Assembly: GCF_008122505.1 (NCBI RefSeq)
Contig: NZ_VSSB01000002.1
Span: 1,116,001 to 1,180,000, forward strand
Direction of reading: 5' to 3'
Length of the DNA stretch: 64,000 nt
Origin: Agromyces mariniharenae
GTDB lineage: Bacteria; Actinomycetota; Actinomycetes; Actinomycetales; Microbacteriaceae
The notes under the pieces are model-generated. The model saw only the letters and a list, made by a program, of their open reading frames with translations, was not told the DNA's origin and did no database searches. Both the position numbers and the translations under genes were made by a program. Of this stretch, positions 39,396 through 55,926 are shown piece by piece (positions within the stretch are counted from its first letter, which is position 1; every line of letters starts with the position of its first letter).

Positions 39396-42300
39396 CTAAG
39401 TGATTCTCAGCCGCGCCCTGGGGTGTCCATAAACGGCGTATGCGAGTTCAGACAGGTCTCCAGCATCGCGGGCTGCGGCTCGTGCGGACCTCGTCGCTTC
39501 GCCAAGCGGTTGACCGTCGAGGAACGCCTGATAGAACGCTTCCACGAAGACGGAATCTGGTTCGTCACTGAGTGACCAAGAGCAAGAGACGAGTACCCCC
39601 GCGCCTCCGCGGAGAAAGGCCTCAGCAAATCCGCCAAGCGAACGTTCACCCGAGGTAGTTCTACCGCCGTCAAACGCGTTGAGAAATACAAACGGTCCTG
39701 CGGCAATGTCGATTCCATTTCCTAGACCGAAGTCAGCTCGTAGGTCATCGACGGTATAGCGCCAAGCCGGGTCCTCCTCCGCGGCGTGGTTGAATTCAGC
39801 AAGCAGGAGCTCCTGCTGTGGCGGTTCGACCTCAGACCATCGACAATGTCCCGCAAAGTGAAAGAGGTCGAAACCATCCCTCATCATCGCGTGCATGCCC
39901 GAGGCATCTTCTGGCTCGATTGAAGTTGCTTGGATCATATGCTCCAGCAGGCGCCGCTCTTCGGCCGAGCTGACCAACCGTAGGCGAGAGTCGACATACA
40001 ACGGGCAGACGACCCTGGCCCGACCAGGGGCGACGGGGATCTCCGTCGGATGAGGAGTGTCGTATACCCAGCGAATCAATCCCGTATTGCCGAGAAATCG
40101 AACTTCTCCATTGTCTCGCTCACCGGGCGATGGTACGAGGTGCACAAGTTCCCACGGTATGTCGAACTCGCCGTTGGACTGCACAATAAGACCGTCAAGC
40201 TCGTCGCGGTGTCGCCATAGAAGATTGAGGACCTCGGGTGGAAGGACTGACCTTGCCAGCGAGCTTCCGATTTGTGTCATCCGTCGCAACGCCGTGCGTG
40301 CCCGAGTGTTGGAGTCGCGAAGGTCTGCGAGCTCCGTCCGAATGCCCGCAATTCGGCTGTACAACGACGCGACGAAGCGCCTCTTGTCCGACAGTTGAAG
40401 GAGACCTTCGGCCTCTTCGCCGCGGACACTAGCGCGGACCGACAGCTGGGTTTCACCCTTTACGAATGCCTCGTCAACTCTAACGCTCGGCAAAGCGACC
40501 AACTCGCGAGCTGGTTCGACTATTCTCGCCACGGCCGTTCTCGGTTCTGGCCCCGAACCTGACTCCGGGATCTCAGCTGTTAGCCGCAACGTCGCGAGCG
40601 GGAGGTCAGATTGCTGCCTTAGGAGCAACGACACCTCCGCTGGTCCGGCTTCAGTCGCTATCAGCCTAAAGGCGTGCTCAGAGACGTCGTTCACGTCCGG
40701 AATGATCAGCTCGACGCTTCTTGGCTCCTCCTTGGCCAGCCGGAACCCTCGAGGCACGATCGTCGCAACAATATGTCGGCGGGGGTCCGTAGAGATGGAC
40801 TGAGAAGCTGTCAGCTCGCTCTTCGGCTCGCTTGCCCGAGGTGCTAGCCGGACACGCAGGTCGAAGCTCCCAGGCGTTCCGGGGCTCCGCGCGAGTTCTG
40901 CAAAGACGTACACGGCGAGGCCGGTTGCATCGGACACGATCGGCCCGTCTTCGGAAGCATCAGGAGGCGCGGGCGCTGTGTTCGAATGTTCCGACGATTC
41001 CGCGCCTCGCTCTTGGTCCAGGACGCTGTCGCCCGTGCGAGACGCCACCTCCTGACGCGCGTACTCCAAGGTGGTGATGCGGTTCGGGTTGTCTGGCAGC
41101 TTGCGTGCGAGATCGAGCGCATGCGACAAGGCCTTCTCGACTGATGTCATGGCATCGAGAGGGAGGCTACGAACAGCTTGCGTCAGTGCGCGGGCGGCTT
41201 GATACCCGATAAAAGGCGCCTCAACGTCGGGATTATCCAACCGCTCGGCAAGCCATTCAAGTCGATCGGCTCTTGGATACGCGCTCAGTATGGCAATCGC
41301 AGCAAGTCGCTCCCCCGCGGACGAACTTCGTTCTAGCTCCGCGAGCAGTGGACGTACATCGGACGCCAACTCGACCATCGCGTTGAAGATTCGGGTCATC
41401 TCCCTTGTGCGCTCGGGGCCTGAGACCATCGATTCACGTGTGGCGTCGTACGTCTCGGCAAGACTACGGATTGCCCGTTCTTGCTCCGGGGAAACAGACG
41501 CCTCATCTCTTCCATCGCGTCCTGGCCCTAGGTCGTCGGAGGGCGGTTCAGATGTGGCCATCCCAGCCTGTGAAGGTGGCACGTTCGGCGCAAAGGTGCT
41601 TGTGGAGGTGAGGAGGAGGCTACCACCGAGTACTTCTTCGCCATGGAATTCGGGGGTCTGCCGCCGGTTTGGGCCGAATTGCTCGACCACCTGTCGCACG
41701 AAGTCTCGGTTCGAGACCCTGCCAATGCCGTCCGTAAGGAGAGGCAGGGCTATGCGCGTGAAGTCGCCATGCTCGCTCGATTCCCACGCCACCTCGGTGG
41801 GCTTGCAGGCGCTGAACAGCACCTCGCGGCGGCGCGTGCTGGCGCGCATCGGCGCCGGAATCTGGGACTCAGAAGCGCGGACGGTCGCGTGCGCAGCGCT
41901 CCGGAGAGGGTCGGTTGTACTTCCTTCGACATCTGCACCGCGATTAACTCGATATGCGACGTCATCGACCATCGTCAGGAAAGTTGCCCGGGGCAACGAG
42001 TCGCCAACGGGGCTGAGGTCGATTCGCGGGGCCCGGTTGGCTGACCCTGAGTGAGACGCATCAAAGAAGGCGGTGAACGCCACGCCTTCGGGGATCACGT
42101 CCCAAATGCGGGCGAGGTCGTCGTCGATGATGAACCGTCCCTGCTTGCGGAAGTCCACGGGGCACAGCGCCTCGTCCTTCGCGACGTCGCCGTCCTCCTC
42201 GTCGGCGTCGAGGTCAGGGACGAACGTGCCGTGTCCCGAGTACTGCACTGCGAGCACGTCGCCCGGCGCGGCCTGGCTGACGAGCTCGAGGATGCCGCGG

Positions 42301-45194
42301 AGGATCTCGTCACGGGTGGCCGCGGCATCCGTCATCTCGGTCACCTCGAACTCCGCGGCTGTCAGGGCCTCGGCCCAGGCGCGGGCGTCGGCGACGCAGC
42401 CGCGCAGGCGGTCGCCCTCGTCGGGGTAAGCATCGACCCCAATGCAGAGCGCTCGGCGGGCGCCTCTGCCACCTGATGCGGACCCCGCGCGACCCGCGGG
42501 CAAGTTTTCATACGCTGGCCAGGGCGCTCTGGTGCGTCCACGGTCATTCGGGAATGGGGTGACGTTGGCGACGCCGGCCACCCGACGCCCGACGCTCTCC
42601 ATGGTGGGCGCGTCGGTGTCGAAGTCGCCGTGCGAGGTCGCGGCGCTCGCCGTGCGCACGCCCACCGCGTTCGGAGCGAGCACGAGGTCGCCGTCGGCCG
42701 AGGCGCCCCTGAAGAAGTCGGCGAGCTCGGGGTCGTTAGTGAGGAACTTCGCCATGCCGAGGATAGGCGTCGATCTCTGCGCCTCGAGTGACGTCGAGAC
42801 CAGGTAGAGCAGCGACTTGTTGTAGATGCGCAGGCAGGTGTCGGCACGCTCGGCCTCATCGTCCATCGTGAAGATCGCGACGCGGGCGATCTTCCCGCTG
42901 CGCGCGTGCGGCATCACGAGCCTCGAGAACGTGTCGACCCGCACGGCCGGCGCGAGCAGGTTGAGCGACTCGATTCTGGGCACACCAGCCACGAGTGCCG
43001 CCTGGAGCAGGTACGCGTGGAAGATCGAGCCCGCGCTGTGGCCCACAGCGTGCACCTCGATCTCGCCCGGGTGCTCGGCCATGAACCTCGCGAGGGCGCG
43101 CACGAAGTAGTGCCCGCCGCCGCCGTTCACGGATGCCGCGGCCGCGTCGAGCTTTATGTCATTCCAGATCCGAGCCCCGCCAAACAGCTGCGCGGCCACC
43201 TCGACGAACGAGTCCTTCGCCTCGTCCACCCAGCCGCGGCGACCGCCTGCTGCCCACTCCTGCAGCGCGTCCCAGAGCGCCGCGCCGAGGCCGGTCTCCC
43301 ACACGAAGTGGATCGGGTAGACGCCGTTCCCCTTCCACCAGGCGACCTGTTGCACTGCGACACCCAGACTTGTTCTTTTGTCGACGAGCCCGCCTTGTGC
43401 ATAGAGCACGACCGGCACGGGACCGGGCGCGTGCGCGGCGATGAATGCAGGCAGGTGCGTCTCGAAGATGGCATCGATGTCGGCCGCCGTCGTACGAAAG
43501 CTGCCCACGTCGCGCGACTCGAAGGGCGCACCCGTGGCGAGCTTTCCGTCCTCGAGGATCACGACGCAGGGTTTGAGGTCGGCTAATTGATCAGGTTTGA
43601 TTTCTTGATCGGGAGCTACGTCATCACCCGTGCCCGCGGGAGGAGCGGCTGTATCCCACCGCGGAGTGATGCCGGCCCCGCGAGCGATCGCATCCGGTGT
43701 TCGGAACCCAAACCGCTGACCAAGTGAGCTGACGACTGCGCTCATCTCAGCAGTCGGCGCAGCTACGGAGCCCTCAATGATGGAGAACGGTGCCGAAGAC
43801 GGATTCGATGCTTCCAGATATGGACTCACCGCCCTCCACACATCGAGCGTCGTCGTCACGTTCAGATACCTCTGAAGGAGCTCGCGAACTCCTGGGTAGA
43901 ACTCGAAGTCGCCGTCGCCGGATCCCGACTCCGTGAGCAGCCCGCCCGCGAGTACTTCGGCGAGGTGAATCTGTTTTGCACCTGGCACCAGTCGGTCCAG
44001 CAAGAGCCGAGCAATCGGCAGTGTCACCTCGACGGCTGAGAGCATCGTGGCCAATCGGGAGGCTTCCGTCGACACTGTGGAGCGGAAGACCTCAAGGCGC
44101 TCTTCGGGTGTCCGCTGACGCACATCCGTTCGATCCGTTCCGAGCGGCAACCGAGGTAGGGTCACCCCGGCGACGGCCGCTCCAGATCCCATCAGCATTC
44201 GCGCCCAGGAGGTGAGGCGATCGGGGTCGAGGCTGATGACGGGCAGCACGCTCGCCGGCATCGACGACACCCACCACCACGGCAACCTTACGTTCAGATT
44301 CCTATTCGGCTCCCCGCGACGGTCAGCCGAAATACCTGCGTCAACGTTTCCGAGTGCCGTCGCAGCCCAAAGCCTCTCGGGCAACACCTGGACCAAGGCG
44401 ACCGGACCGCTGTGACCCCACAGGTCGATGGCTGTCCATGCGTCCGGACCGGCCCACATTGCGCCGACGCAATCGGACACAACCAAGGTGAGGCGGCGAC
44501 CGTTGTAGTCGATCAACTCTCGGATGCTGTGTTTCCTACCTGCCGCCGAGACGAGCTCAATGCCGGCGGTCCCCTGAATGAGTTTCCACTGCACGACGCG
44601 ATCGAAGGCGCCGTACCGTTCGAAGAGTCGGGTCAGCGCACTCACGGTCGATGCCCACGGCAACATCGTTGGCCCTGCATCTAAAACGATGGAAAGCTCC
44701 TCGAACCAGCGAACCTTGGCCGGGCCTTCCACCGGCAAGAGGAGGCCCGTCGCGCAGTAGAAGTCGACGGTGCCTTCGACGTCGAGTGTGCGAAGCCGAT
44801 GAGACGCGCGCTTTACTTTCAGAGGGCGAATGGCACGGTTGATTTCACGTTCACCGGGCAACGCGTTGCGGAGCGGATCGCGAAGGTTGAGCCCTATCGT
44901 TGCGCCGATCCCGGCAGATGCGGTCCTGCCCAGTGTCGGTGGCAGTGGCTCAGTTGTGGGTTCTGATGGCTGCGGGACCTCGATGACGTCATCATCAGAT
45001 GCTGTCTTGGATGATGTAGTAACCGGTCGCGGCTCTACTGGTGCGGGCTCGGCGGCTCGTTCTTCTTCCCGCTCAGTTGGTTGGATCTCGGAATCGGAGG
45101 TAACCAACCGAGCGAGCCAGAGAATGTCAGCAAGATCTCGCCATTCTGGTTCGATTCCAGATACTTGGAGCGCTCGAATAAGTCGATCAAGCAT
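39396..45194 (-). CDS. SAV_2336-type / alpha-beta hydrolase / caspase-like / CHAT-like fusion protein (degenerate protease sites)
   Basis: 1932 residues in one open frame. Residues about 1-545 resemble SAV_2336 N-terminal proteins (EELSIVLDAGPTMLPWASTV, LVVSDCVGAMWAG). About 560-880 is an alpha/beta hydrolase-like domain with G-H-S-A-G (Ser720). About 913-1160 is a caspase-like domain with S-G-H-G (His988), but the catalytic Cys position is Ser1047 (D-A-S-H-S-G). A HEAT-like helical part and a beta-rich part follow. About 1640-1932 is a CHAT-like domain with F-A-G-H (His1783), but N-A-F-D replaces N-A-C-x (Phe1841). Its ATG overlaps the MoxR stop (TGATG). The GC content of the middle is higher than at both ends. 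Likely an adaptor or regulator of the system. Confidence 0.82.
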   Translation of the reverse strand: MLDRLIRALQVSGIEPEWRDLADILWLARLVTSDSEIQPTEREEERAAEPAPVEPRPVTTSSKTASDDDVIEVPQPSEPTTEPLPPTLGRTASAGIGATIGLNLRDPLRNALPGEREINRAIRPLKVKRASHRLRTLDVEGTVDFYCATGLLLPVEGPAKVRWFEELSIVLDAGPTMLPWASTVSALTRLFERYGAFDRVVQWKLIQGTAGIELVSAAGRKHSIRELIDYNGRRLTLVVSDCVGAMWAGPDAWTAIDLWGHSGPVALVQVLPERLWAATALGNVDAGISADRRGEPNRNLNVRLPWWWVSSMPASVLPVISLDPDRLTSWARMLMGSGAAVAGVTLPRLPLGTDRTDVRQRTPEERLEVFRSTVSTEASRLATMLSAVEVTLPIARLLLDRLVPGAKQIHLAEVLAGGLLTESGSGDGDFEFYPGVRELLQRYLNVTTTLDVWRAVSPYLEASNPSSAPFSIIEGSVAAPTAEMSAVVSSLGQRFGFRTPDAIARGAGITPRWDTAAPPAGTGDDVAPDQEIKPDQLADLKPCVVILEDGKLATGAPFESRDVGSFRTTAADIDAIFETHLPAFIAAHAPGPVPVVLYAQGGLVDKRTSLGVAVQQVAWWKGNGVYPIHFVWETGLGAALWDALQEWAAGGRRGWVDEAKDSFVEVAAQLFGGARIWNDIKLDAAAASVNGGGGHYFVRALARFMAEHPGEIEVHAVGHSAGSIFHAYLLQAALVAGVPRIESLNLLAPAVRVDTFSRLVMPHARSGKIARVAIFTMDDEAERADTCLRIYNKSLLYLVSTSLEAQRSTPILGMAKFLTNDPELADFFRGASADGDLVLAPNAVGVRTASAATSHGDFDTDAPTMESVGRRVAGVANVTPFPNDRGRTRAPWPAYENLPAGRAGSASGGRGARRALCIGVDAYPDEGDRLRGCVADARAWAEALTAAEFEVTEMTDAAATRDEILRGILELVSQAAPGDVLAVQYSGHGTFVPDLDADEEDGDVAKDEALCPVDFRKQGRFIIDDDLARIWDVIPEGVAFTAFFDASHSGSANRAPRIDLSPVGDSLPRATFLTMVDDVAYRVNRGADVEGSTTDPLRSAAHATVRASESQIPAPMRASTRRREVLFSACKPTEVAWESSEHGDFTRIALPLLTDGIGRVSNRDFVRQVVEQFGPNRRQTPEFHGEEVLGGSLLLTSTSTFAPNVPPSQAGMATSEPPSDDLGPGRDGRDEASVSPEQERAIRSLAETYDATRESMVSGPERTREMTRIFNAMVELASDVRPLLAELERSSSAGERLAAIAILSAYPRADRLEWLAERLDNPDVEAPFIGYQAARALTQAVRSLPLDAMTSVEKALSHALDLARKLPDNPNRITTLEYARQEVASRTGDSVLDQERGAESSEHSNTAPAPPDASEDGPIVSDATGLAVYVFAELARSPGTPGSFDLRVRLAPRASEPKSELTASQSISTDPRRHIVATIVPRGFRLAKEEPRSVELIIPDVNDVSEHAFRLIATEAGPAEVSLLLRQQSDLPLATLRLTAEIPESGSGPEPRTAVARIVEPARELVALPSVRVDEAFVKGETQLSVRASVRGEEAEGLLQLSDKRRFVASLYSRIAGIRTELADLRDSNTRARTALRRMTQIGSSLARSVLPPEVLNLLWRHRDELDGLIVQSNGEFDIPWELVHLVPSPGERDNGEVRFLGNTGLIRWVYDTPHPTEIPVAPGRARVVCPLYVDSRLRLVSSAEERRLLEHMIQATSIEPEDASGMHAMMRDGFDLFHFAGHCRWSEVEPPQQELLLAEFNHAAEEDPAWRYTVDDLRADFGLGNGIDIAAGPFVFLNAFDGGRTTSGERSLGGFAEAFLRGGAGVLVSCSWSLSDEPDSVFVEAFYQAFLDGQPLGEATRSARAAARDAGDLSELAYAVYGHPRARLRIT

Positions 45195-46159
45195 CAGAAC
45201 TCCGAAGTCAGCTCCCGGAAGAGAAGCTCGAGGATGGCCTGACGCTCCGCGTTGGTCTCAGGCAGCACGTTTTGGGTAACAAGGTAGACAGCGTTGAGGA
45301 GCTGGTCCGTTGCTTGGGGCTTTCCCCCGTCCGTCCGAGCAAGAAAGTCGTCAATCAGCCCGGAAACCGCTGGAGTGTTCGGCAGGCCGAGGTGGGCTGA
45401 CACGATATCCTCCAGCAACTCCTTCGTAGTATCAGGCATCCGCAATCTGATGCACCGGCGTAGGAAGGCGGTGGGGAAGTCACGCTCGCCATTGCTTGTG
45501 AGCACGACGAACGGAAACTCCGCGCATTGCACTTTGCCCTTGTGGATGCGCACCCAGTTTTCGCTCTCGAACTCCCTCACGTTAACGTCTTCCTCGTTGT
45601 GCCGCGTCAGCTCTGGGATTTCGAACTCTCCACGCTCGAACACGTTGAGGAGGTCGTTCGGCAGATCGATATCGCTCTTGTCGATCTCATCAACCAGCAA
45701 AGCGCGTGGCTTGCTTCGCGGAATAAGTGCGGTACCGAGAGGACCCAGGGTGAGGTAATCGCTAATCGACGTGGTGGTCGTTCTTGAGCCCTCATCGTGG
45801 GAGATTCTCTCTGCCTGCAACCGACCGATTGCATCGTAACGGTACAGGGCTTCGTTCAACGTGCTCCGCGACGTAACATGCCATCGCAATACGGGCCCGA
45901 GGCTTAGCTCAAGCGCGACGGCGTCAATGAGGGAGGACTTTCCCGATCCGGGGATCCCAGTGACTAGGAGAGGTCTCCTAAGCATGAGCGCCGCATTCAC
46001 CGCATCGATAACCTCGGGCGACGCCTGAAACGTTGCCCCTGCATGATTCGACGAGCTGCCTGTGGCGCCATCGTCCGAGAACACTCGCCATGGTGGCGGC
46101 TCCGGAAGTTTGATCTCTCGAACCTTGCGGTCGCCTCGATAGATTCGCCAATCGTTCAT
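45194..46159 (-). CDS. MoxR-type AAA+ ATPase
   Basis: 321 residues. Walker A is GIPGSGKS (68-75), Walker B is LLVDEID (154-160), and sensor 1 is VVLTSNGERDFPTAFLRRCIRLRMP, which also brings the arginine finger pair. SDYLTLGPLGTALIP is a MoxR-like pre-Walker-B insert. MoxR ATPases remodel or load partner proteins; in actinobacteria they occur with SAV_2336-type proteins. Stop and next start share bases (TGATG), and the caspase gene ends 11 nt upstream, so all are one operon. Confidence 0.92.
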   Translation of the reverse strand: MNDWRIYRGDRKVREIKLPEPPPWRVFSDDGATGSSSNHAGATFQASPEVIDAVNAALMLRRPLLVTGIPGSGKSSLIDAVALELSLGPVLRWHVTSRSTLNEALYRYDAIGRLQAERISHDEGSRTTTTSISDYLTLGPLGTALIPRSKPRALLVDEIDKSDIDLPNDLLNVFERGEFEIPELTRHNEEDVNVREFESENWVRIHKGKVQCAEFPFVVLTSNGERDFPTAFLRRCIRLRMPDTTKELLEDIVSAHLGLPNTPAVSGLIDDFLARTDGGKPQATDQLLNAVYLVTQNVLPETNAERQAILELLFRELTSEF

Positions 46160-46170
46160 GTCGTCACCTC

Positions 46171-48339
46171 TTAGGCCATGGCTGGCAGTTCTGAACGGCG
46201 GTCAGGCAGCGCATCGGGGTCGTCCCACACCAATCGCAACGTGCTCACAACCCCCTCGGGATCGTCTCGCCGTAGCGCCCGCAGGCGTTCCGGAATCGTT
46301 TTGAAATCGCCCTCCTTCAAGAATTTTCTAAGCATCTCCTTTGTCTTGGTCCAATCCGAGGGGGGATCGGTGGCCCAGACGATGTAAGGCGCGCCGGCGA
46401 CAATGCTTGCGATGAGGGGATCCCGGCGAAGATCGTCAGGGACCGTTCCGATTGCAAACTCCAATCCCTGAAGGTGGGCCTTGCTGCCGGCGATCGAGTC
46501 TTGAATGGCCGTAACGCTCGATGCTCCAGGAATCCATTCGAGCGTCGGCGAATTGAACAGCAGACTGTGGGCAATACGTTTGACGGCCTCGTCCCACTGC
46601 CTGAACACGGGCTCGTATGCACGTCGCTCCGCCACGTGGAGCGCCGTCGGCCATGATTCCCCAAGTGGCCGTGTGAGTTCTAAGTGGCTGGCGGCAAACG
46701 GCCACGTCTCGGGGAGCGCAACAAACGCTGCTCGAGGCAGTAGGAACCCGACGGTGAATGAGCCGTACCCGCCGGCCATCTTTGCAATGACCGGGACGGC
46801 GGCGTCTCTGAACCCGTCAGGAGTGCGATCACATGGCACGACTGTCTTCGGCTGCCAGCCATTGCGAGGGTCCTTGACATGGGCGACGAACTCGGTCGGC
46901 CACGCGAATCGAGCATCCGGTCCATCTACACACGGGATCTCAATCACTAGCCTGGCGACGCCCTCGGGTGGGGCAGCAGCTGCACCTGCCCGAAGCAAGC
47001 CCAAGGCGGGACCGGTGATGTAGGGAGCGAACACGGCATCAGGAAGCTGATCACCAGTGAGACACTCAACTGCTACGGCGAACTTGATGAGGGACTCATA
47101 GCCGAACCCAGCCGCTATCTCCAGCGCTTGCTCGAGGTCGGCGGGCATCGAGTCCAGTTCCGGCACGACAAGTCGAATTGCTTCGTTCATCTGCTGCAGA
47201 TTGACAGTGCCAAACGCCTCGACAAAGCTTGACACCGCGCGCTGACGCTCTAGGAAGATCTCGAGATCGAAATTCCGCTCCGCGGAAGTCGCCGCTCGAG
47301 CCTGGAGGCCCTCAATGAGGCGATGACGGTTGTCGTAACTCGTGACGACCAATGCAACGAGATCAACAGTCTCTTGCCCGGTGGCGTCGATCTGGCCATC
47401 TAGTGCGGCAATCAGCTCCTGGCGGAGCTCTGCCTCCGTAAGCGCGGCACCGCTTCTCAGTTCGCGCTCGACGCGGTCGAGTTGTCTGGGCGACATGCCT
47501 GCTGAGGACAAGACCTGCTGGGTTTGTCCGGATACAGGAATCCCACCGCCGAACTCCTGAGTGTCCCTTTGACCTCCGCCAGTTTCGAAGATGCGAGTCA
47601 CGGGATGCTGTCGTGTGACGCCCTTCGCGTTCAGTACCTTGAAGCTGTCGTCGATGTGCTGGACAACTGTTGGAAAATCAATCGGGAGGCACACGTTCTC
47701 TTTAAGCCACTCAAGGAGACTATTGGAGAACGCCGCTTCCCGCTTTAGGCGATCGTGCGTTGCGTACTCACCCTGCGAAGCCGCAAACAGCGTTGATTGC
47801 GAAACTCGTCTAAAAGTTCTGCCGTTCGGATTCAACGGACCCGACGAGAGGTCGTCAGGTATCTTCATCTCGGCAGAGAAGTTGGCGCATGCATCAATGA
47901 AGACGACTTGGTTATCGAAACCAGGGAAAGCATCAGAGGTCAAGTAGCGAAGGACCTGGTCAACGACGAACACTCGGGGGGCCTCGGCATACGCATCAGC
48001 GGCATAGAGCACTCGTTGTCCGCTTCGGTTGAGCACTCCGTGCCCACTCCAGTAGACCACCAGCAGGTCGCCGCGTACTTTCGATGCCTTGATGAAGAGA
48101 TCCTCAATATCATGCTGAGCGCCATCGAACGTGAGGACATTCTCCGGTGGCGGGGTCTCGGCGCCAGACCAGGAGCGGGCTAGCCATACCTGCTCGGGCG
48201 GCACCCGACAGTCGACGGCCCATTGCGCAAAGCGAACCGCATCCGAGGCGACTCCAGGAAGCGAATACTTCTTTCCGTAGGCGTATTCTTCAAGTCCAAT
48301 GGCGAGAACCAGGACCTTGCGAACATCAATGGTGGCCAT
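46171..48339 (-). CDS. Caspase-family peptidase with VMAP-like C-terminal region
   Basis: 722 residues. The N-terminal ~250 form a C14 caspase-like domain: KVLVLAIGLEEYAYG, LLVVYWSGHGVL (His100) and VVFIDACANF (Cys151), so the catalytic dyad is intact. A helical linker (about 285-400, e.g. SPRQLDRVERELRSGAALTEAELRQELIAAL) may be an effector-associated adaptor. Residues about 480-722 (LLRAGAAAAPPEGVARLVIEI ... YIVWATDPPSDW) resemble the C-terminal region of vWA-MoxR-associated proteins, known partners of MoxR ATPases. Probable effector: limited proteolysis of targets once triggered. Start overlaps the hydrolase stop by 14 nt. Confidence 0.8.
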   Translation of the reverse strand: MATIDVRKVLVLAIGLEEYAYGKKYSLPGVASDAVRFAQWAVDCRVPPEQVWLARSWSGAETPPPENVLTFDGAQHDIEDLFIKASKVRGDLLVVYWSGHGVLNRSGQRVLYAADAYAEAPRVFVVDQVLRYLTSDAFPGFDNQVVFIDACANFSAEMKIPDDLSSGPLNPNGRTFRRVSQSTLFAASQGEYATHDRLKREAAFSNSLLEWLKENVCLPIDFPTVVQHIDDSFKVLNAKGVTRQHPVTRIFETGGGQRDTQEFGGGIPVSGQTQQVLSSAGMSPRQLDRVERELRSGAALTEAELRQELIAALDGQIDATGQETVDLVALVVTSYDNRHRLIEGLQARAATSAERNFDLEIFLERQRAVSSFVEAFGTVNLQQMNEAIRLVVPELDSMPADLEQALEIAAGFGYESLIKFAVAVECLTGDQLPDAVFAPYITGPALGLLRAGAAAAPPEGVARLVIEIPCVDGPDARFAWPTEFVAHVKDPRNGWQPKTVVPCDRTPDGFRDAAVPVIAKMAGGYGSFTVGFLLPRAAFVALPETWPFAASHLELTRPLGESWPTALHVAERRAYEPVFRQWDEAVKRIAHSLLFNSPTLEWIPGASSVTAIQDSIAGSKAHLQGLEFAIGTVPDDLRRDPLIASIVAGAPYIVWATDPPSDWTKTKEMLRKFLKEGDFKTIPERLRALRRDDPEGVVSTLRLVWDDPDALPDRRSELPAMA

Positions 48340-49525
48340 TGAGCGCTCCTTCGACGCCCGCCCACACTTCCGGGTTGGACCAGTACGCGCTGTGCGAGTA
48401 GGGGAACGGCTGACCGTTGTCGACCTCGAGATCCGACACCCGCTCGGGGAAGACCTCCGCGCCTACGTAGGACAGGAGGTCACGTCGGTCGTAGACGTTC
48501 AACCATCGTGGGAAGTGATCCGGGAGAGAGTCTGGCGGCTCAAGGCTTGGCAACGCCCCGATCTCGTAGAGAAACGGCGCCTGTGAACCCACTGTTATGA
48601 GTAGGTCCACGTTGTCAACCTGCTTCCGGACGAGCAGGTCGGCGCACATTATGCCGCCGAGCGAATGGGCGAGCAGGATGACGGGACCGTCACCGCAGTC
48701 TTGAATCGATTGCTCCAGGAATCTACGCGCGTCATCACCTCGAGCTAGGAAGCGCATGATGTCGCCCCCGGGATCGGTGAGCTTATCTGTAAGGTCGCCG
48801 CGGTCTTTGGTGAGCCGGTACGTGGCATAGCGCAGAGCCAAACCCTTGAACGGCCGGAGCAGGAAGTCGGATATACCCATGCCATAACCATGGAGTTGGG
48901 TTGTAACTGCCTCCACAATGGCGTCACGAACGGTTCCGCTCACCGGGTCGTTACCCGCCTCCATTGAATCGACGAGTGTCTGTGCCACGATCGCTCGGGC
49001 GATTGCTTGACGATGTAGGAGTGGTTCAGCCGGGGCAGTGTCCAGCGCCTGCGCGAACTCCGGCGAGGACGCAACCGTTTGGAGCGCAGGTGGAAACCAG
49101 TCCATAAGATGGTTGGATTCGAGCAACAACGTCAGGTCGTCGCTTGCCGTGAACCTCTCGACGTCATCGCGAATGAGTGTTGCGGGCGGTGCTTCGCCGA
49201 GCACCACTTCCGTCGTGCTGTCATCGTAGTTCCGCAGCAACCGCAGTTCGTACAGCGGATCGGTGTAGAGAACCGACCACAACGCAACTTCCTCGTCGGC
49301 AGCTGATGGTTGTTGGCCGCCGCCGGCCGCAAGGTAGTCCGGTATTGAAACGCCATTCAGCCGAAGCTTCGCGCCTTCCGACTCGCCCCAGAAGCAGCCT
49401 TTGACATCGACGTCTAACCCGCGATCGTCCACCGTCTTCTTGATGGCCTCGAGTGTTGCCGCGTATGCTTTCCCGCGAACACCGGTTCCGTGGACGAACA
49501 ACAGCGTGGAACGGTTGGTGCCCAT
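48326..49525 (-). CDS. Alpha/beta hydrolase (lipase/esterase-like)
   Basis: 399 residues from ATG 49525, which has a GGGGGGAGGGG site. STLLFVHGTGVRGKAYAATL is the first strand and oxyanion turn. VILLAHSLGGIMCADLLVRK holds the nucleophile Ser288. TVGSQAPFLYEIGALPSL and FPRWLNVYDRRDLLSYVGAEVFP suggest the Asp, and the His lies in PYSHSAYWSNPEVW. Similar proteins occur as possible lipases or phospholipases in conflict operons. First gene of the minus-strand operon; 14-nt overlap with the caspase gene. Confidence 0.82.
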   Translation of the reverse strand: MGTNRSTLLFVHGTGVRGKAYAATLEAIKKTVDDRGLDVDVKGCFWGESEGAKLRLNGVSIPDYLAAGGGQQPSAADEEVALWSVLYTDPLYELRLLRNYDDSTTEVVLGEAPPATLIRDDVERFTASDDLTLLLESNHLMDWFPPALQTVASSPEFAQALDTAPAEPLLHRQAIARAIVAQTLVDSMEAGNDPVSGTVRDAIVEAVTTQLHGYGMGISDFLLRPFKGLALRYATYRLTKDRGDLTDKLTDPGGDIMRFLARGDDARRFLEQSIQDCGDGPVILLAHSLGGIMCADLLVRKQVDNVDLLITVGSQAPFLYEIGALPSLEPPDSLPDHFPRWLNVYDRRDLLSYVGAEVFPERVSDLEVDNGQPFPYSHSAYWSNPEVWAGVEGALNGHH

Positions 49526-50475: not shown

Positions 50476-50758
50476 TCGTTGGAGTGCGTCCCGCGTCCAT
50501 CGATTTCGGACACTCTCCGGTTCGGCGTGAGGCGAATCTGGGTCTTGGCACGGGATGTGCGCTGACTCCAGCAGGCTCTCCCTAGCAACATTTCCAACGT
50601 TCGCGGATCGTGCGCTTGATGAATTGACCAAACCTGGCTGCGGCCATACTGGAGCTAAGAAAGTGGCGAGCCTCCGTCCAACTGGATCGAGGGAAGAATT
50701 ACTGGTGCAACGCGCTGGATTACGGCATCCTGAATCCAACTGGGGGAAGGGGATATCA

Positions 50759-52690
50759 ATGTCCCGGATTTATATGCGCGTGCTCGTTGCTAACGACTCT
50801 GATGCAACGCTTCGGCTCCGGCATCGTTCCACATCTAGGAGCTGGACGGGCGGGTGGGAGCCCGTCGTACAGTCGGAGACACTGCCCGGCGGACACCACG
50901 GCTGGCAGGCCGAAGGCGACCTCTTCATCTGGGAGTTGTCCGGTGTCGAGGCTCGAGTCTGGTATGACGTTGTCGCCCCGTCTGGGGAGGTGCTCGGCGA
51001 GCTATACATCTTTGCCAACAGCCCGGTGAGAGAGTCGCAGTACGGGAACACCTTCCACGTGCACGCACCGGCCGGCTACTACGCCACGTATTCGGACGCC
51101 AAAGGTCAGAAGAACGACAACAACCGTGCCGTTCTCGAGATCAGGTTCAGGAATACCCGCAAGGTCGCAGTGCGGGGCTTCAAGCCCTCAAAGAACGGAT
51201 TCCAGTTCTCGAACGGGTCGTGGAGCGATCAGCTGCCCGTCCTCACGGTCGGAGAACTGTGGAACCGCTTCCGCGGCGTGCTAACTGGCGGTGGTCTGGC
51301 CGACGCGCTGGGGATCACTCCCTCCACGGATTGGCTGCCGCTCACACACGCCGACACTGGTCTGTGTGGCGGCATGACGTATGCGGTCATGGACTACTTC
51401 GCGCTCAATCAGATCCCGCCGGAGGCAAAGAAGAATCGCGACGGTGCTTACGTCCCCCCTGATTCGGCTGACGACCCGATGTTCCTCTTCATTCGAGAGC
51501 GACTCCTGGATAGTTTCGATTTCACCGGTCGGGGGCATCGCTGGCTCTCGTACACCTCGCCGATCTATCCAGACGACGACGAGGGCGTTCTGCAGTCCTT
51601 CGGGGTGATGAAAGGCAAGGCGTGGGTCACGTACCGCGAGGAATGGCCTCGCATCCGTGAGCTGCTCGACAACGGGAAACTGGCGACGGTCGGACTTGTA
51701 CAGTCGGCCCAGTTCGACATCGGCGCGAACCACCAGGTGCTCGCGTATGCGTACGAACAAAGCGCCCAGAACGTCAAGCTCTGGATTTACGACCCGAACG
51801 TCCCTGGCCAAGCCCCCCTCCCTGCGATCGCAGACGACCTTTACCTTGAATTCGACACCTCGAGCACGGCCGACGGAATCACGGTGACGCGTCACAACGC
51901 GCCGGCGGAGGAGCCGGAGAAGGTGAAGCGGATTTACGCCCTCCTGCTGATGGATAACTACATTCCGAAAGCTCCCCCGCCGGGGCGTAGCGTCCCCCCT
52001 CCCGACGCCCCCAAGTACTTCAAGCTGGTCAGGACGGATGCGGAGTCTTTCACCACGGGAGGAACGGTGAAGGGCACTCGCAAGAACTACTGCCAGGAGG
52101 TCATGGAGACCGGCATGTGGACGAGTCGCACCGACATGACATTCGTCGCGCAGGTGGTCGGATACGTCGATCCAGTCGTCTCGTGGACGGTGGCCGGTGT
52201 GCCGGTGACCGACAAGACGACAGCGGTTCCGATCAATGTCGGCGGGACGCCGTTCAGTATCGGATGCCGACTCCTTGCGGGCGGTCGATCCCTGATGCTG
52301 TCCTCTGCCCCTGGCGACACCTATGCTGCCGCAGTCAGCGTCACGATGAAGGATGCCCTGGGCGAGACGAAGGCAGCGACCGACATATTCGACATCGAAG
52401 GGACATACGAGGGGCCCAGGATCGAGCACATCCGCGCCGAAACGCGGTGTCTCGAACGAACGATCCCGGTTCCTGTGGACATCGGCGATTTCGTGATTCC
52501 TAAGGAAGGACCTGGGCCTGTCGAAATCGAAGCATGGAAAGCTGGCGTCCTCGCGCGCCTGAATGAGAATGCGGCGATCAACCCCGCGGCCCGTGCCGCG
52601 ATCGAAGCGTTCGTCGAGCTTCAGGTTGACCTGCCGGACATCGGCGGAATCGGCACCGCCATCGCGCAAAGGAACCGCATCGGCGGCTAG
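50759..52690 (+). CDS. Predicted papain-like cysteine peptidase with beta-rich N-terminal domain
   Basis: 643 residues from ATG 50759 (GGGGAAGGGGA site). Residues about 1-140 are beta-rich (RVLVANDSDATLRLRHRS ... VWYDVVAPSGEVLGELYIFAN) and vaguely like aegerolysin-type domains. The centre has GLCGGMTYAVMDYF (Cys203), GANHQVLAYAYE (His325) and LWIYDPNVPG (Asp345), the order of a papain-type Cys-His-Asp triad. The C-terminal ~250 hold beta-rich modules (TDMTFVAQVVGYVDPVVSWTVAG). There is no signal peptide or membrane helix. The substrate is unknown. The peptidase assignment rests on the motif order. Confidence 0.65.
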   Translation: MSRIYMRVLVANDSDATLRLRHRSTSRSWTGGWEPVVQSETLPGGHHGWQAEGDLFIWELSGVEARVWYDVVAPSGEVLGELYIFANSPVRESQYGNTFHVHAPAGYYATYSDAKGQKNDNNRAVLEIRFRNTRKVAVRGFKPSKNGFQFSNGSWSDQLPVLTVGELWNRFRGVLTGGGLADALGITPSTDWLPLTHADTGLCGGMTYAVMDYFALNQIPPEAKKNRDGAYVPPDSADDPMFLFIRERLLDSFDFTGRGHRWLSYTSPIYPDDDEGVLQSFGVMKGKAWVTYREEWPRIRELLDNGKLATVGLVQSAQFDIGANHQVLAYAYEQSAQNVKLWIYDPNVPGQAPLPAIADDLYLEFDTSSTADGITVTRHNAPAEEPEKVKRIYALLLMDNYIPKAPPPGRSVPPPDAPKYFKLVRTDAESFTTGGTVKGTRKNYCQEVMETGMWTSRTDMTFVAQVVGYVDPVVSWTVAGVPVTDKTTAVPINVGGTPFSIGCRLLAGGRSLMLSSAPGDTYAAAVSVTMKDALGETKAATDIFDIEGTYEGPRIEHIRAETRCLERTIPVPVDIGDFVIPKEGPGPVEIEAWKAGVLARLNENAAINPAARAAIEAFVELQVDLPDIGGIGTAIAQRNRIGG

Positions 52691-53784: not shown

Positions 53785-55926
53785 TCACCAGTTTCGCCCG
53801 TGGCGGTAGTTGTGCACCCACTGGTTGTAGATTCTCTCGAGGCGCACCGACGCAGTCGTGGTCATCGATCCCAGCCAGTCGTTGTTGTGCGCCAGCATGC
53901 TGACGGGCCCGCTCGGCACCCGGTGGCGCTTCGCGGTGCCTATTGGGGTGATGACCTCGCCAACGCCCCATCGAGGTAGGCGTGGTGGAGGCACCACGGT
54001 GAACCGGTCGAAGGGACCGAGATGCCACTCGCCGATCCAATCCTCCTCCCAGTCAGCACGCAGGCGCGTGCCGTCCGAGACCATTCGTCCTGCGTAACCA
54101 ACGATCCAGTCCCGGGGATTCCAAGCGAACAACCCCACCTTCCCACTTCCTGTCAGATCGGCAGGCTGGAACTGGTCACCGGCGCGGAGGCCGCCCCAGC
54201 CAGGGACTTCGTCCTCGTAGAGCCGCACTCGGGCGAATCCGTTGCCGGTCGATCGGAACATGCCCAGGTAACAGCTCGACCAGTCCACCGCGTTGGACAG
54301 GAAGATGTCATCCTTTCCGTCGCCGTCGAAGTCGCCAATGTAGATGCGGTCGTTGGCGGCGAACCCACCCCAGCCGGGCAGGTCATCGACGTAGAGGCGG
54401 ACAGTGCGGAAGCCGCCGCGTTGTAGGCGGAGGATGCCGAGGAACTTCTCGCTCCAGTCCCGTCCGTTCCAGATGAGCAGATCGTCGCGACCCGTGCCGG
54501 TAAAGTCCCCAACGCGGAAGATGTCCCACGAGGCGAGCTCGCCCCAACCCGGAAGCTCGTTCTCGTACAAGCGCGTTAGCTTGAACCCGCGCCCTGTCGA
54601 TGTAAGGAGAGCGACGTACCGGCTCGACCAGTCGGCGAGATTGTAGATAAGTAGATCTTGTTTGCCGTCGCCGTCGAAATCTCCGACGAGGAACCGGTCG
54701 TTACGCGCGAACCCGCCCCAGCCAGGGATGTCGCCGTCGTATCGGGCGAGCAGGTGGAGCGTCCCGTCGGGCCGTACCTCGAAGAGGCCAAGATAAGGAA
54801 AGGTGAAGTCGACCGAGTTGTACACCACGACCTCATCCAGGCCGTCGCCGTCGAAGTCGCCAGTAAAGAACTGATCGCCGGGCTTCACGTCCCATCCGGG
54901 CATGGCGTCTGCAGTGGTCTGGACGTGCTGCCAGCCATCGTCAGCTTTGCGGTAGAGCGTGATCGAACGGTCGCCGTACTCGAGGAACTCCGGCGCGAGA
55001 TCCGGGGTGAAGTGGCCGGCCGCGATGCGACGGAAGTTGCGACCGGTCGCCTCATGGTTACCTCGCTTGAGTTCGGTGTAGCAGACCGGGCAGAACTCGT
55101 TCGCATTAGTCCTCATCCGGCAGCGGACCGCCGGCCGGTAGATGCCGGTCGCGAATGTTGCACCGCCCTCGAAGAGGCCTGCGTCCAATGAGTCGTCCCA
55201 GCCAGCGGGCTTCGCGCCGGCAGTGTAGTCGGCGTTAGCACCGGTGCCGGTCGGCACGGGGGTGGTCGGCGCGACGAACGTCGCCCACTTGAGACCCTCG
55301 AGGGTATTCGTGAGCGTGACGTTGACCCTCTGGGGCTCGTTAGTATCCGAGTACGCACCCTTTGCAACCTTGCCGTACTCGTCTTCGAGGTCACCGAAAC
55401 CGTGGCCGAACTCGTGGGCGATCGTTGCCCAGTTCACCGCCATGGTCACTTTGAGCACGGTGCCGTTGCGCAGCCCGCCCTTGAGTGGCGAATTGACGAC
55501 GATCAGGATGAAGTCCCATCCCGGCGCCCACTTGTCGCAGGCGTCTTTAATGGCCTTTTCAGTCTTCGCCGAGTCCTCGAACCAGTCGTGCCACCAGGTG
55601 CCGTTGGAGATGATGCCGAGGGCGGTGTCCTTCAGCGCGTCCGTCGAGGTGTCGTCGCTCGTGTCGGCGTCCGTCCCCTTAAGGTTCCATTTGCGCGTGC
55701 TTGCGACCGAGTCTTTCGACTCGAGATTGACGCGGATGATGTTCCACGCTGCCGAGTCCTCGTTGAAGTAGCCGGACCCGAAGACCCCGTCGATCACCTC
55801 ATCCTGGACGAACTTGTTGAAGGCCGCCTGACCGACCGCGTCGAACCCGTCACCGAGGATCGCCAGGGTTTTCCGTCTCGGGTTGTTGATGCCTACATCC
55901 TGCAGGATGGTCGCGCTGTCAGCCAT
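53785..55926 (-). CDS. M64-family metallopeptidase with C-terminal FG-GAP/VCBS repeats
   Basis: 713 residues. RKTLAILGDGFDAVGQAAFNKFVQDEVIDGVF is the M64 opening. The zinc site is IAHEFGHGFGDLEDEY (His171, Glu172, His175 and the D-E-Y), as in the IgA-peptidase M64 group. From about residue 340 five FG-GAP-like repeats follow, each with G-D-F-D-G-D-G-x-D-E/D or a variant (the last two weaker), forming a Ca-binding beta-propeller. No Sec signal peptide is encoded although the architecture is one of secreted proteins. The ATG has GAAGGGA 8 nt upstream. Transcribed with 52992-53768. Confidence 0.83.
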   Translation of the reverse strand: MADSATILQDVGINNPRRKTLAILGDGFDAVGQAAFNKFVQDEVIDGVFGSGYFNEDSAAWNIIRVNLESKDSVASTRKWNLKGTDADTSDDTSTDALKDTALGIISNGTWWHDWFEDSAKTEKAIKDACDKWAPGWDFILIVVNSPLKGGLRNGTVLKVTMAVNWATIAHEFGHGFGDLEDEYGKVAKGAYSDTNEPQRVNVTLTNTLEGLKWATFVAPTTPVPTGTGANADYTAGAKPAGWDDSLDAGLFEGGATFATGIYRPAVRCRMRTNANEFCPVCYTELKRGNHEATGRNFRRIAAGHFTPDLAPEFLEYGDRSITLYRKADDGWQHVQTTADAMPGWDVKPGDQFFTGDFDGDGLDEVVVYNSVDFTFPYLGLFEVRPDGTLHLLARYDGDIPGWGGFARNDRFLVGDFDGDGKQDLLIYNLADWSSRYVALLTSTGRGFKLTRLYENELPGWGELASWDIFRVGDFTGTGRDDLLIWNGRDWSEKFLGILRLQRGGFRTVRLYVDDLPGWGGFAANDRIYIGDFDGDGKDDIFLSNAVDWSSCYLGMFRSTGNGFARVRLYEDEVPGWGGLRAGDQFQPADLTGSGKVGLFAWNPRDWIVGYAGRMVSDGTRLRADWEEDWIGEWHLGPFDRFTVVPPPRLPRWGVGEVITPIGTAKRHRVPSGPVSMLAHNNDWLGSMTTTASVRLERIYNQWVHNYRHGRNW

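Follow-up and report, generated by a model that had tools for sequence, protein, structure and literature searches.

A predicted VMAP ternary system of Agromyces mariniharenae whose vWA-type component carries apparently disarmed caspase-like and CHAT-like domains

Organization of the locus

The window analyzed here, a 64,000-nucleotide stretch of the genome of Agromyces mariniharenae (contig NZ_VSSB01000002.1, positions 1,116,001 to 1,180,000), contains a minus-strand gene (39396–45194) for a 1932-residue fusion protein, the subject of this study. From its N-terminus, the protein comprises a SAV_2336/vWA-like region, an alpha/beta-hydrolase domain, a pseudo-caspase domain, a linker with a sub-threshold HEAT match, a DUF7363 domain and a pseudo-CHAT domain. 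An earlier reading of the sequence alone (the original prediction) had reported that both protease domains keep the catalytic His and have lost the catalytic Cys; the residues, codons and coordinates of His988, Ser1047, His1783 and Phe1841, and the limits of the reading frame, were all found to be exact.

The pseudo-caspase domain (residues 906–1200; 41595–42479, minus strand, as are all operon features below) gave a Pfam Peptidase_C14 match (PF00656 family) at residues 913–1183, with 74.9 bits against a cut-off of 21.4. His988 (CAC, 42231–42233) is kept, and Ser1047 (TCT, 42054–42056) occupies the nucleophile position in FFDASHSG. A phmmer search against the PDB placed Ser1047 opposite the nucleophile of yeast metacaspase-1 (4f6o, with 4f6p as the Cys-to-Ala form) and His988 opposite the SGHG-motif His of that protein. 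The caspase fold is present and the His-Cys dyad of active C14 peptidases is absent, so that the domain would be classed as a pseudo-orthocaspase (fold kept, dyad gone). The pseudo-CHAT domain (residues 1701–1932; 39399–40094; PF12770) was matched by Pfam at residues 1720–1910 (48.3 bits, cut-off 24), and its fold was recovered in a predicted model (predicted local distance difference test 85.8, predicted template-modelling score 0.88) matching separase, Csx29/TPR-CHAT and SAVED-CHAT (structures 8rot, TPR-CHAT and 8tl0). His1783 (CAT, 39846–39848) is kept and is followed by Cys1784 in place of the usual Gly, a change present in the A. cavernae fusion (below) as well; Phe1841 (TTT, 39672–39674, in FLNAFDGG) stands at the nucleophile position, and the His-Cys dyad of active CHAT proteases is thus missing.

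Beyond the two protease domains originally described, a third hydrolase domain was recognized: the alpha/beta-hydrolase-like domain (residues 511–860; 42615–43664), which keeps Ser720 within GHSAG (718–722) and carries QGG for HGG by virtue of Gln600 (43395–43397). The SAV_2336 N-terminal region (residues 18–462; 43809–45143) matched NF041121 (SAV_2336_NTERM, NCBIfam) with 344.8 bits (cut-off 200), and DUF7363 (residues 1432–1538; 40581–40901) matched PF24063 with 79.9 bits (cut-off 28.3).

Upstream of the fusion gene lie three further genes. The first encodes a MoxR-type AAA+ ATPase (45194–46159) with the N-terminal motifs WRIYRG and PPWRVF, which correspond to the VMAP-system motifs defined by Kaur et al. 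(2020; PMC7159879). The second encodes VMAP (46171–48339), with an N-terminal caspase (PF00656, 36.5 bits) and a VMAP-C domain (PF20028, 46.5 bits, cut-off 27); as originally described, His100 (CAC) and Cys151 (TGC) of this caspase are intact. The third is a stand-alone alpha/beta-hydrolase (48326–49525; PF12697, 27.4 bits, cut-off 26.3) of the kind accompanying VMAP caspases, its start being set from the orthologue in Agromyces cavernae. The gene order 5'-VMAP–MoxR–vWA-3', all on the minus strand, is identical in A. cavernae. VMAP-C, the MoxR motifs (WxhapG and PsWRxa) and the caspase–hydrolase pairing that together mark a VMAP ternary system are all present.

A PxWR motif was found in 39 of 40 MoxR neighbors of SAV_2336 genes (that at L102 lacks it). 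Among 41 aligned SAV_2336 rows, D172, which lies in DAGPT, was kept in 39 and D241 in all, the pattern to be expected of a vWA site that binds metal. At the C-terminus, five further SAV_2336 proteins carry differing domains (NB-ARC with TPR in two, WD40 with AAA, helicase with AAA, and protein kinase), indicating that the fusion belongs to a component with a variable C-terminus. The VMAP caspase dyad was present in all four aligned proteins, including that of A. mariniharenae, and a protein search with this caspase found only two others; its relation to the fusion caspase is distant (a single 14-residue BLASTP match, E 0.005). Place and sequence features together identify the fusion gene as the predicted vWA-type third component of a VMAP–MoxR–vWA conflict system, and the operon is predicted to act against invaders. 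This assignment, to a class of systems in which inactive peptidases at the effector position are usual, goes beyond the original prediction.

Catalytic residues in homologues

Homologues were sought in 100 related genomes, 60 of them Agromyces including A. mariniharenae, with at most four candidates scored per genome; in the protein searches, the best approximately 8000 candidates by shared words were scored. The fusion was found in two of the 100 genomes, A. mariniharenae and Agromyces cavernae SYSU K20354 (G059). The A. cavernae protein (L034:6945-12728) is a syntenic orthologue with 79% identity, and the whole four-gene operon is syntenic there, with a VMAP caspase that is 81% identical and keeps its dyad.

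The C-terminal domains of the fusion also occur as a module of two adjacent genes, one for DUF7363-CHAT and one for hydrolase-caspase, in eight other Agromyces genomes and elsewhere in A. mariniharenae itself. In these nine Agromyces split pairs, both the CHAT Cys and the caspase dyad are kept, and the caspase domain of the resident A. mariniharenae copy, dyad intact, is 81% identical to that of the fusion. A single-chain form with CHAT first, a 1497-residue CHAT-hydrolase-caspase protein with intact dyads (L036:7743-12236), was found in Agromyces sp. Soil535 (G049), a genome that also holds a split pair with intact dyads.

At the caspase positions, all 77 other rows that could be read have His and Cys, the row of P0028 being set aside as out of frame there. 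The dyad was lost in the two fusions only, as His/Ser in A. mariniharenae and as Gln/Cys in A. cavernae. At the CHAT positions, both fusions have His/Phe, and His/Cys was found in 73 of 79 non-fusion rows; the other six comprise His/Ser in G050, His/Thr in G010 and four short proteins without the His or the catalytic part. These four DUF7363 proteins, 411–471 residues long (L048:9393-10652, L049:9398-10813, L050:9201-10493 and L040:11641-12876), preserve the terminal portions of the CHAT protein and lack its catalytic middle; three lie at the site of the pair and one beside a pair with intact dyads. In the hydrolase domain, residue 600 is His in all 40 non-fusion rows and Gln in both fusions, and Ser720, Asp785 and His855 are conserved in all 44 aligned rows, four of which are fusion rows.

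These homologues bear on several points of the original prediction. Of Ser and Phe, whose conservation was to be checked, Phe1841 is shared by both fusions, and Ser1047 is confined to one genome. Homologues with Cys at both positions, which had been named as a sign of recent decay or sequence error, do exist; neither is indicated, however, given that the CHAT Phe occurs in two species, that the caspase dyad was lost on two occasions and that conservation holds outside these sites. Both codons do, formally, lie one base from TGT, as originally remarked, but TGC was used by all Cys-bearing relatives checked (six caspases and nine CHATs). Both TCT and TTT are two changes from TGC, which makes a single base-call error unlikely.

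Other SAV_2336 proteins were also surveyed. The listed Pfam caspase and CHAT matches of 72 genomes (four with SAV_2336 matches below cut-off) were compared by eye with the listed SAV_2336 matches, and none came as close as 10 kb. Across 40 fetched SAV_2336 loci, a CHAT family profile gave no match, and a caspase profile matched only in L097 and L099, as VMAP-type caspases beside SAV_2336. The Pfam caspase family search misses divergent members (the A. mariniharenae VMAP caspase, L097 and L099 went unreported), so that, among the matches listed, the absence of other SAV_2336 proteins fused to a caspase or CHAT domain is a weak negative.

Two observations on other caspases may be added. Caspases P0007, P0008, P0017 and P0019–P0021, close to the fusion caspase, have precomputed PF01510 or PF01551 domains, which are cell-wall hydrolase families. 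Five matches to the caspase family (two of them sharing a frame, one under the cut-off) lie on the 27.8-kb contig L051 (G057:C30), a possible conflict-system cluster.

Origin of the C-terminal half

In the hydrolase-caspase tree, the two fusions formed a clade (100/100) next to the resident A. mariniharenae copy (100/98). In the CHAT tree, they again formed a clade (100/100, stem 0.41), here adjoining G030 and G011 (100/98) within the Agromyces clade. The approximately unbiased (AU) test rejected placement of the fusion CHAT with its own-genome copy (p 1e-5) as well as placement of the fusion hydrolase-caspase with G030/G011 (p 1.4e-5), and a single common source for both halves was thereby rejected in both directions. 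The analyses of these sequences show the C-terminal half to be a mosaic, evidently disarmed copy of an Agromyces-native module (DUF7363-CHAT plus alpha/beta-hydrolase-caspase).

Base composition also differs along the fusion gene. The G+C content at third codon positions was 0.84 in the hydrolase, 0.79 in the caspase and 0.78 in the short linker between residues 861 and 905, compared with 0.59–0.70 elsewhere in the fusion and operon; the resident genes have 0.92 (CHAT) and 0.96–0.97 (hydrolase-caspase). The simplest reading is that the hydrolase-caspase block would have been copied from a resident locus, and that the receiving operon, lower in GC, either contained the CHAT part beforehand or acquired it separately.

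The surroundings of the operon have a composition of their own. Between 38000 and 64000, G+C falls from approximately 0.70–0.73 to mostly 0.59–0.64, with 0.67 at 42000–44000, where the hydrolase-caspase block lies; this region, which holds the ternary operon, resembles a genomic island. No tRNA genes were found in the 64-kb window. Also in this region are a 713-residue protein (53785–55926, minus strand), near the operon, that combines an IgA peptidase M64 domain with FG-GAP repeats, and, upstream of the operon on the opposite strand, a 711-residue open reading frame (50555–52690, plus strand) for which neither Pfam nor NCBIfam gave a match at E 0.1.

Selection versus decay

Conservation in at least 95% of 40 reference rows defined 52 caspase columns. 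The A. mariniharenae fusion deviates at only two of them (L954M and C1047S) and the A. cavernae fusion at only one (H988Q); the reference rows have a median of 0 deviations and a range of 0–6, with four each in G004 and G005. The chance that a dyad column would be changed in both fusions is approximately 0.003, assuming all conserved columns to be equally mutable. In the hydrolase, the fusions deviate at three and two of 52 columns, with H600Q in common. In CHAT, for which 47 conserved columns were defined from 67 reference rows, the fusions have 6 and 7 deviations, G050 has 8 and G010 has 7, against a reference median of 1 and range of 0–14; positions 1784 and 1841 are changed in all three independent losses.

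The ratio of nonsynonymous to synonymous substitution rates (dN/dS) between the A. mariniharenae and A. cavernae fusions was 0.21 for the caspase (0.16 for its first 155 residues); of the remaining parts, CHAT had 0.25, the hydrolase 0.27, DUF7363 0.38 and SAV_2336 0.18, and the VMAP caspase gave 0.16 in the same two-species comparison. Between intact relatives, the values were 0.19–0.49 for the caspase and 0.17–0.58 for CHAT. These substitution patterns show continuing purifying selection on the folds of the disarmed proteases, and a caspase dyad broken twice independently, by Cys-to-Ser replacement in A. mariniharenae and His-to-Gln replacement in A. cavernae. The different lesions, the nearly intact conserved columns and the low dN/dS together imply two separate losses of catalysis with retention of the fold. 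The replacement of the CHAT Cys by Phe would most simply predate the split of the two lineages. The notion of a pseudo-protease scaffold in the original prediction is thereby upheld at the level of sequence: both folds persist under purifying selection, it is catalytic columns that the caspase lesions hit, and the sister protein has lost the other half of the dyad.

The resident locus and a possible CHAT-to-caspase cascade

At one chromosomal site, with the order ychF, EamA, module, flanking gene and rmuC, A. mariniharenae carries the full pair. At this site, CHAT occurs alone and without its Cys in G050 and G010 (the latter having no EamA match), a DUF7363 remnant occurs in G035, G053 and G057, and nothing of the module is present in A. 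cavernae. A caspase family search in A. cavernae found the fusion and the VMAP caspase only; in G010, it gave one further match, at a different place in the genome.

In all three independent events of CHAT Cys loss, the caspase partner is missing or dead. A sign test, for which the partner state was hand-entered as equal to the nucleophile state and P0028 was left out, gave p 0.25; with three independent pairs only, the correlation between CHAT loss and partner loss cannot reach significance. The Cys losses and the Agromyces locus series (pair, CHAT without Cys, remnant, empty) fit, and may suggest, a CHAT-to-caspase cascade. If so, this coincidence in three of three cases would make the partner caspase the main substrate of CHAT.

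What might the disarmed proteases do?

In VMAP systems, the variable end of the vWA protein has been regarded as either a weapon (a released effector) or a sensor. With key motifs changed in three hydrolase domains, the folds of caspase and CHAT intact, an apparently active original of the hydrolase-caspase part in the same genome and a sister protein broken at the other dyad residue, the present case speaks for the sensor or regulator side. A preserved but disarmed C-terminus is easier to reconcile with sensing or regulation than with a catalytic effector, and the intact dyad of the VMAP caspase fits an executor. Our first choice, held with moderate confidence, is that the disarmed proteases may be the sensor or bait end of the ternary system. 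The pseudo-proteases would present protease surfaces, such as the groove and partner interfaces, without the risk of cutting; an invader protein or an activated partner would engage them; the MoxR ATPase would then remodel the complex and switch on the VMAP caspase; and this caspase, through His100/Cys151, would execute the response.

A more specific form of the sensor or bait reading is tentative. A resident two-protease cascade, in which CHAT cuts the caspase, would have been copied into the sensor arm and its cutting sites lost by selection, so that attack on, or hijacking of, the real cascade would trip the VMAP caspase. If true, such an integrated decoy would parallel, in bacteria, the integrated-decoy receptors of plants.

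Several observations weigh against the sensor or bait reading or its supports. A. cavernae has the fusion and no resident pair at the ychF/EamA site, so guarding of the resident copy cannot be the whole story. Placement of the fusion CHAT in the tree is less sure owing to its long stem (0.41), and the CHAT deviation count alone is not diagnostic, since the intact G004 row has 7, equal to the fusions. Ser1047, as read in the aligned sequences, appears in one genome only, and the alpha/beta-hydrolase, with Ser720 kept, may still be active. The vWA identity of the N-terminal part is presumed from two conserved Asp residues, family and position; the Pfam scan gave no vWA match in the fusion, and inspection by eye did not reveal the [D/E]xxx[D/E]xxxa motif.

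The main rival, somewhat doubtful, is a dominant-negative or allosteric regulator, in which the dead caspase and CHAT domains would bind the VMAP caspase, the resident pair or substrates and restrain or tune them. Kaur et al. (PMC7159879) offered dominant-negative regulation for inactive peptidases at the effector position and reported that a caspase on the vWA protein is nearly always accompanied by a VMAP caspase; precedents are c-FLIP acting on caspase-8 and Trypanosoma brucei MCA4/MCA3 in a metacaspase pathway (PMC6426788). The same genome moreover holds the 81%-identical caspase domain with its dyad. Set against this, the VMAP caspase is only distantly related to the fusion caspase, A. 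cavernae lacks a resident pair on which such regulation could act, and metacaspases are described as monomeric (PMC12914765), so that a dimer-based mechanism is not obvious. The original suggestion of a decoy or regulator of the operon's own active caspase is possible; the closest intact relative sits elsewhere in the genome, and the operon caspase is distant.

It is unlikely that the C-terminus is a releasable effector, with the VMAP caspase cutting the vWA protein to free an alpha/beta-hydrolase effector that acts through Ser720 and the dead proteases serving as carriers or substrates. Peptidase release of effectors was proposed by Kaur et al. (PMC7159879; summarized in PMC10907252), and the full conservation of Ser720, Asp785 and His855 agrees with it, but the hydrolase is itself altered, its HGG His being Gln in both fusions.

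Relaxed decay of a duplicated module that had lost its use and was drifting is improbable. The CHAT Cys losses in G050 and G010, where no caspase gene adjoins, do look like decay, and DUF7363 has the highest dN/dS among the fusion parts; yet the frames are open in two species, caspase and CHAT dN/dS are approximately 0.2–0.25, and the caspase is near-perfectly conserved outside the dyad. Neutral decay is therefore disfavored by the conserved-column and dN/dS results.

The original prediction had also raised the alternative that Ser1047 is a working nucleophile of a Ser-His protease. His988 and the Asp and Gly around the site are indeed kept; the sister fusion, however, keeps the Cys and lacks the His, the CHAT Cys is gone as well, and Ser at this position in T. 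brucei variants and pseudo-orthocaspases is presumed inactive (PMC6426788). What the fusions share is dyad loss rather than a serine protease, and this very improbable alternative was rejected on the His loss of the sister fusion. A sequencing or assembly error at both codons, which are known from the assembly alone, is hardly credible, each codon being two changes from TGC and TTT at 1841 being common to an independent genome.

An apparently active hydrolase-caspase original in the same genome, together with a sister protein broken at the other dyad residue, provides a ready test pair. More generally, variable arms of this kind can arise by piecewise copying of resident protease modules.

Comparison with known systems

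An inactive caspase in a vWA protein is a known pattern rather than a new one. Kaur et al. (PMC7159879) found approximately 70% of effector-position caspases to be inactive, possibly dominant-negative or peptide-binding, and report such inactivity as usual. The present operon is like their VMAP ternary systems in gene order, MoxR motifs, VMAP-C, the caspase on VMAP with its hydrolase gene, and the variable domains of the vWA protein; it differs in that CHAT is fused, its Cys is lost and the source module can be traced. CHAT is not mentioned in the excerpted text of that paper. The occurrence of CHAT near VMAP-type systems is not new either, as a CHAT-TIR protein near a trypsin-associated gene is mentioned in PMC10907252.

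The fusion caspase resembles pseudo-orthocaspases and T. brucei pseudo-metacaspases in its caspase fold, lost dyad and Ser for Cys (PMC6426788). Bacterial pseudo-orthocaspases are mostly Tyr-Ser and come from cyanobacteria and alphaproteobacteria, with pseudo-variants in 3 of 636 actinobacterial sequences, according to the same source. The present fusions differ in belonging to a ternary conflict system and in their dyads, which read His-Ser in A. mariniharenae and Gln-Cys in A. cavernae.

Csx29/TPR-CHAT and SAVED-CHAT are CRISPR (clustered regularly interspaced short palindromic repeats)-associated proteases with an active site and a catalytic Cys, whereas in the fusions the nucleophile is replaced by Phe. 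SAVED-CHAT acts in a cascade onto PCaspase. Literature searches on this cascade and on pseudo-caspases or CHAT in a vWA context yielded nothing relevant. As far as the searches reach (the supplementary case lists of Kaur et al. lying outside them), a pseudo-CHAT in a VMAP system, the tracing of the source module and a dyad broken in two different ways in sister fusions appear to be new.

In a published model, the vWA C-terminus is a sensor whose signal is relayed via MoxR to the VMAP effector (PMC10907252). The arrangement proposed here shares with that model a variable C-terminal sensor, a MoxR relay and the N-terminal effector of VMAP as executor. The sensors of that model are lectin domains diversified by diversity-generating retroelements, whereas those of the Agromyces fusions would be copied and disarmed proteases.

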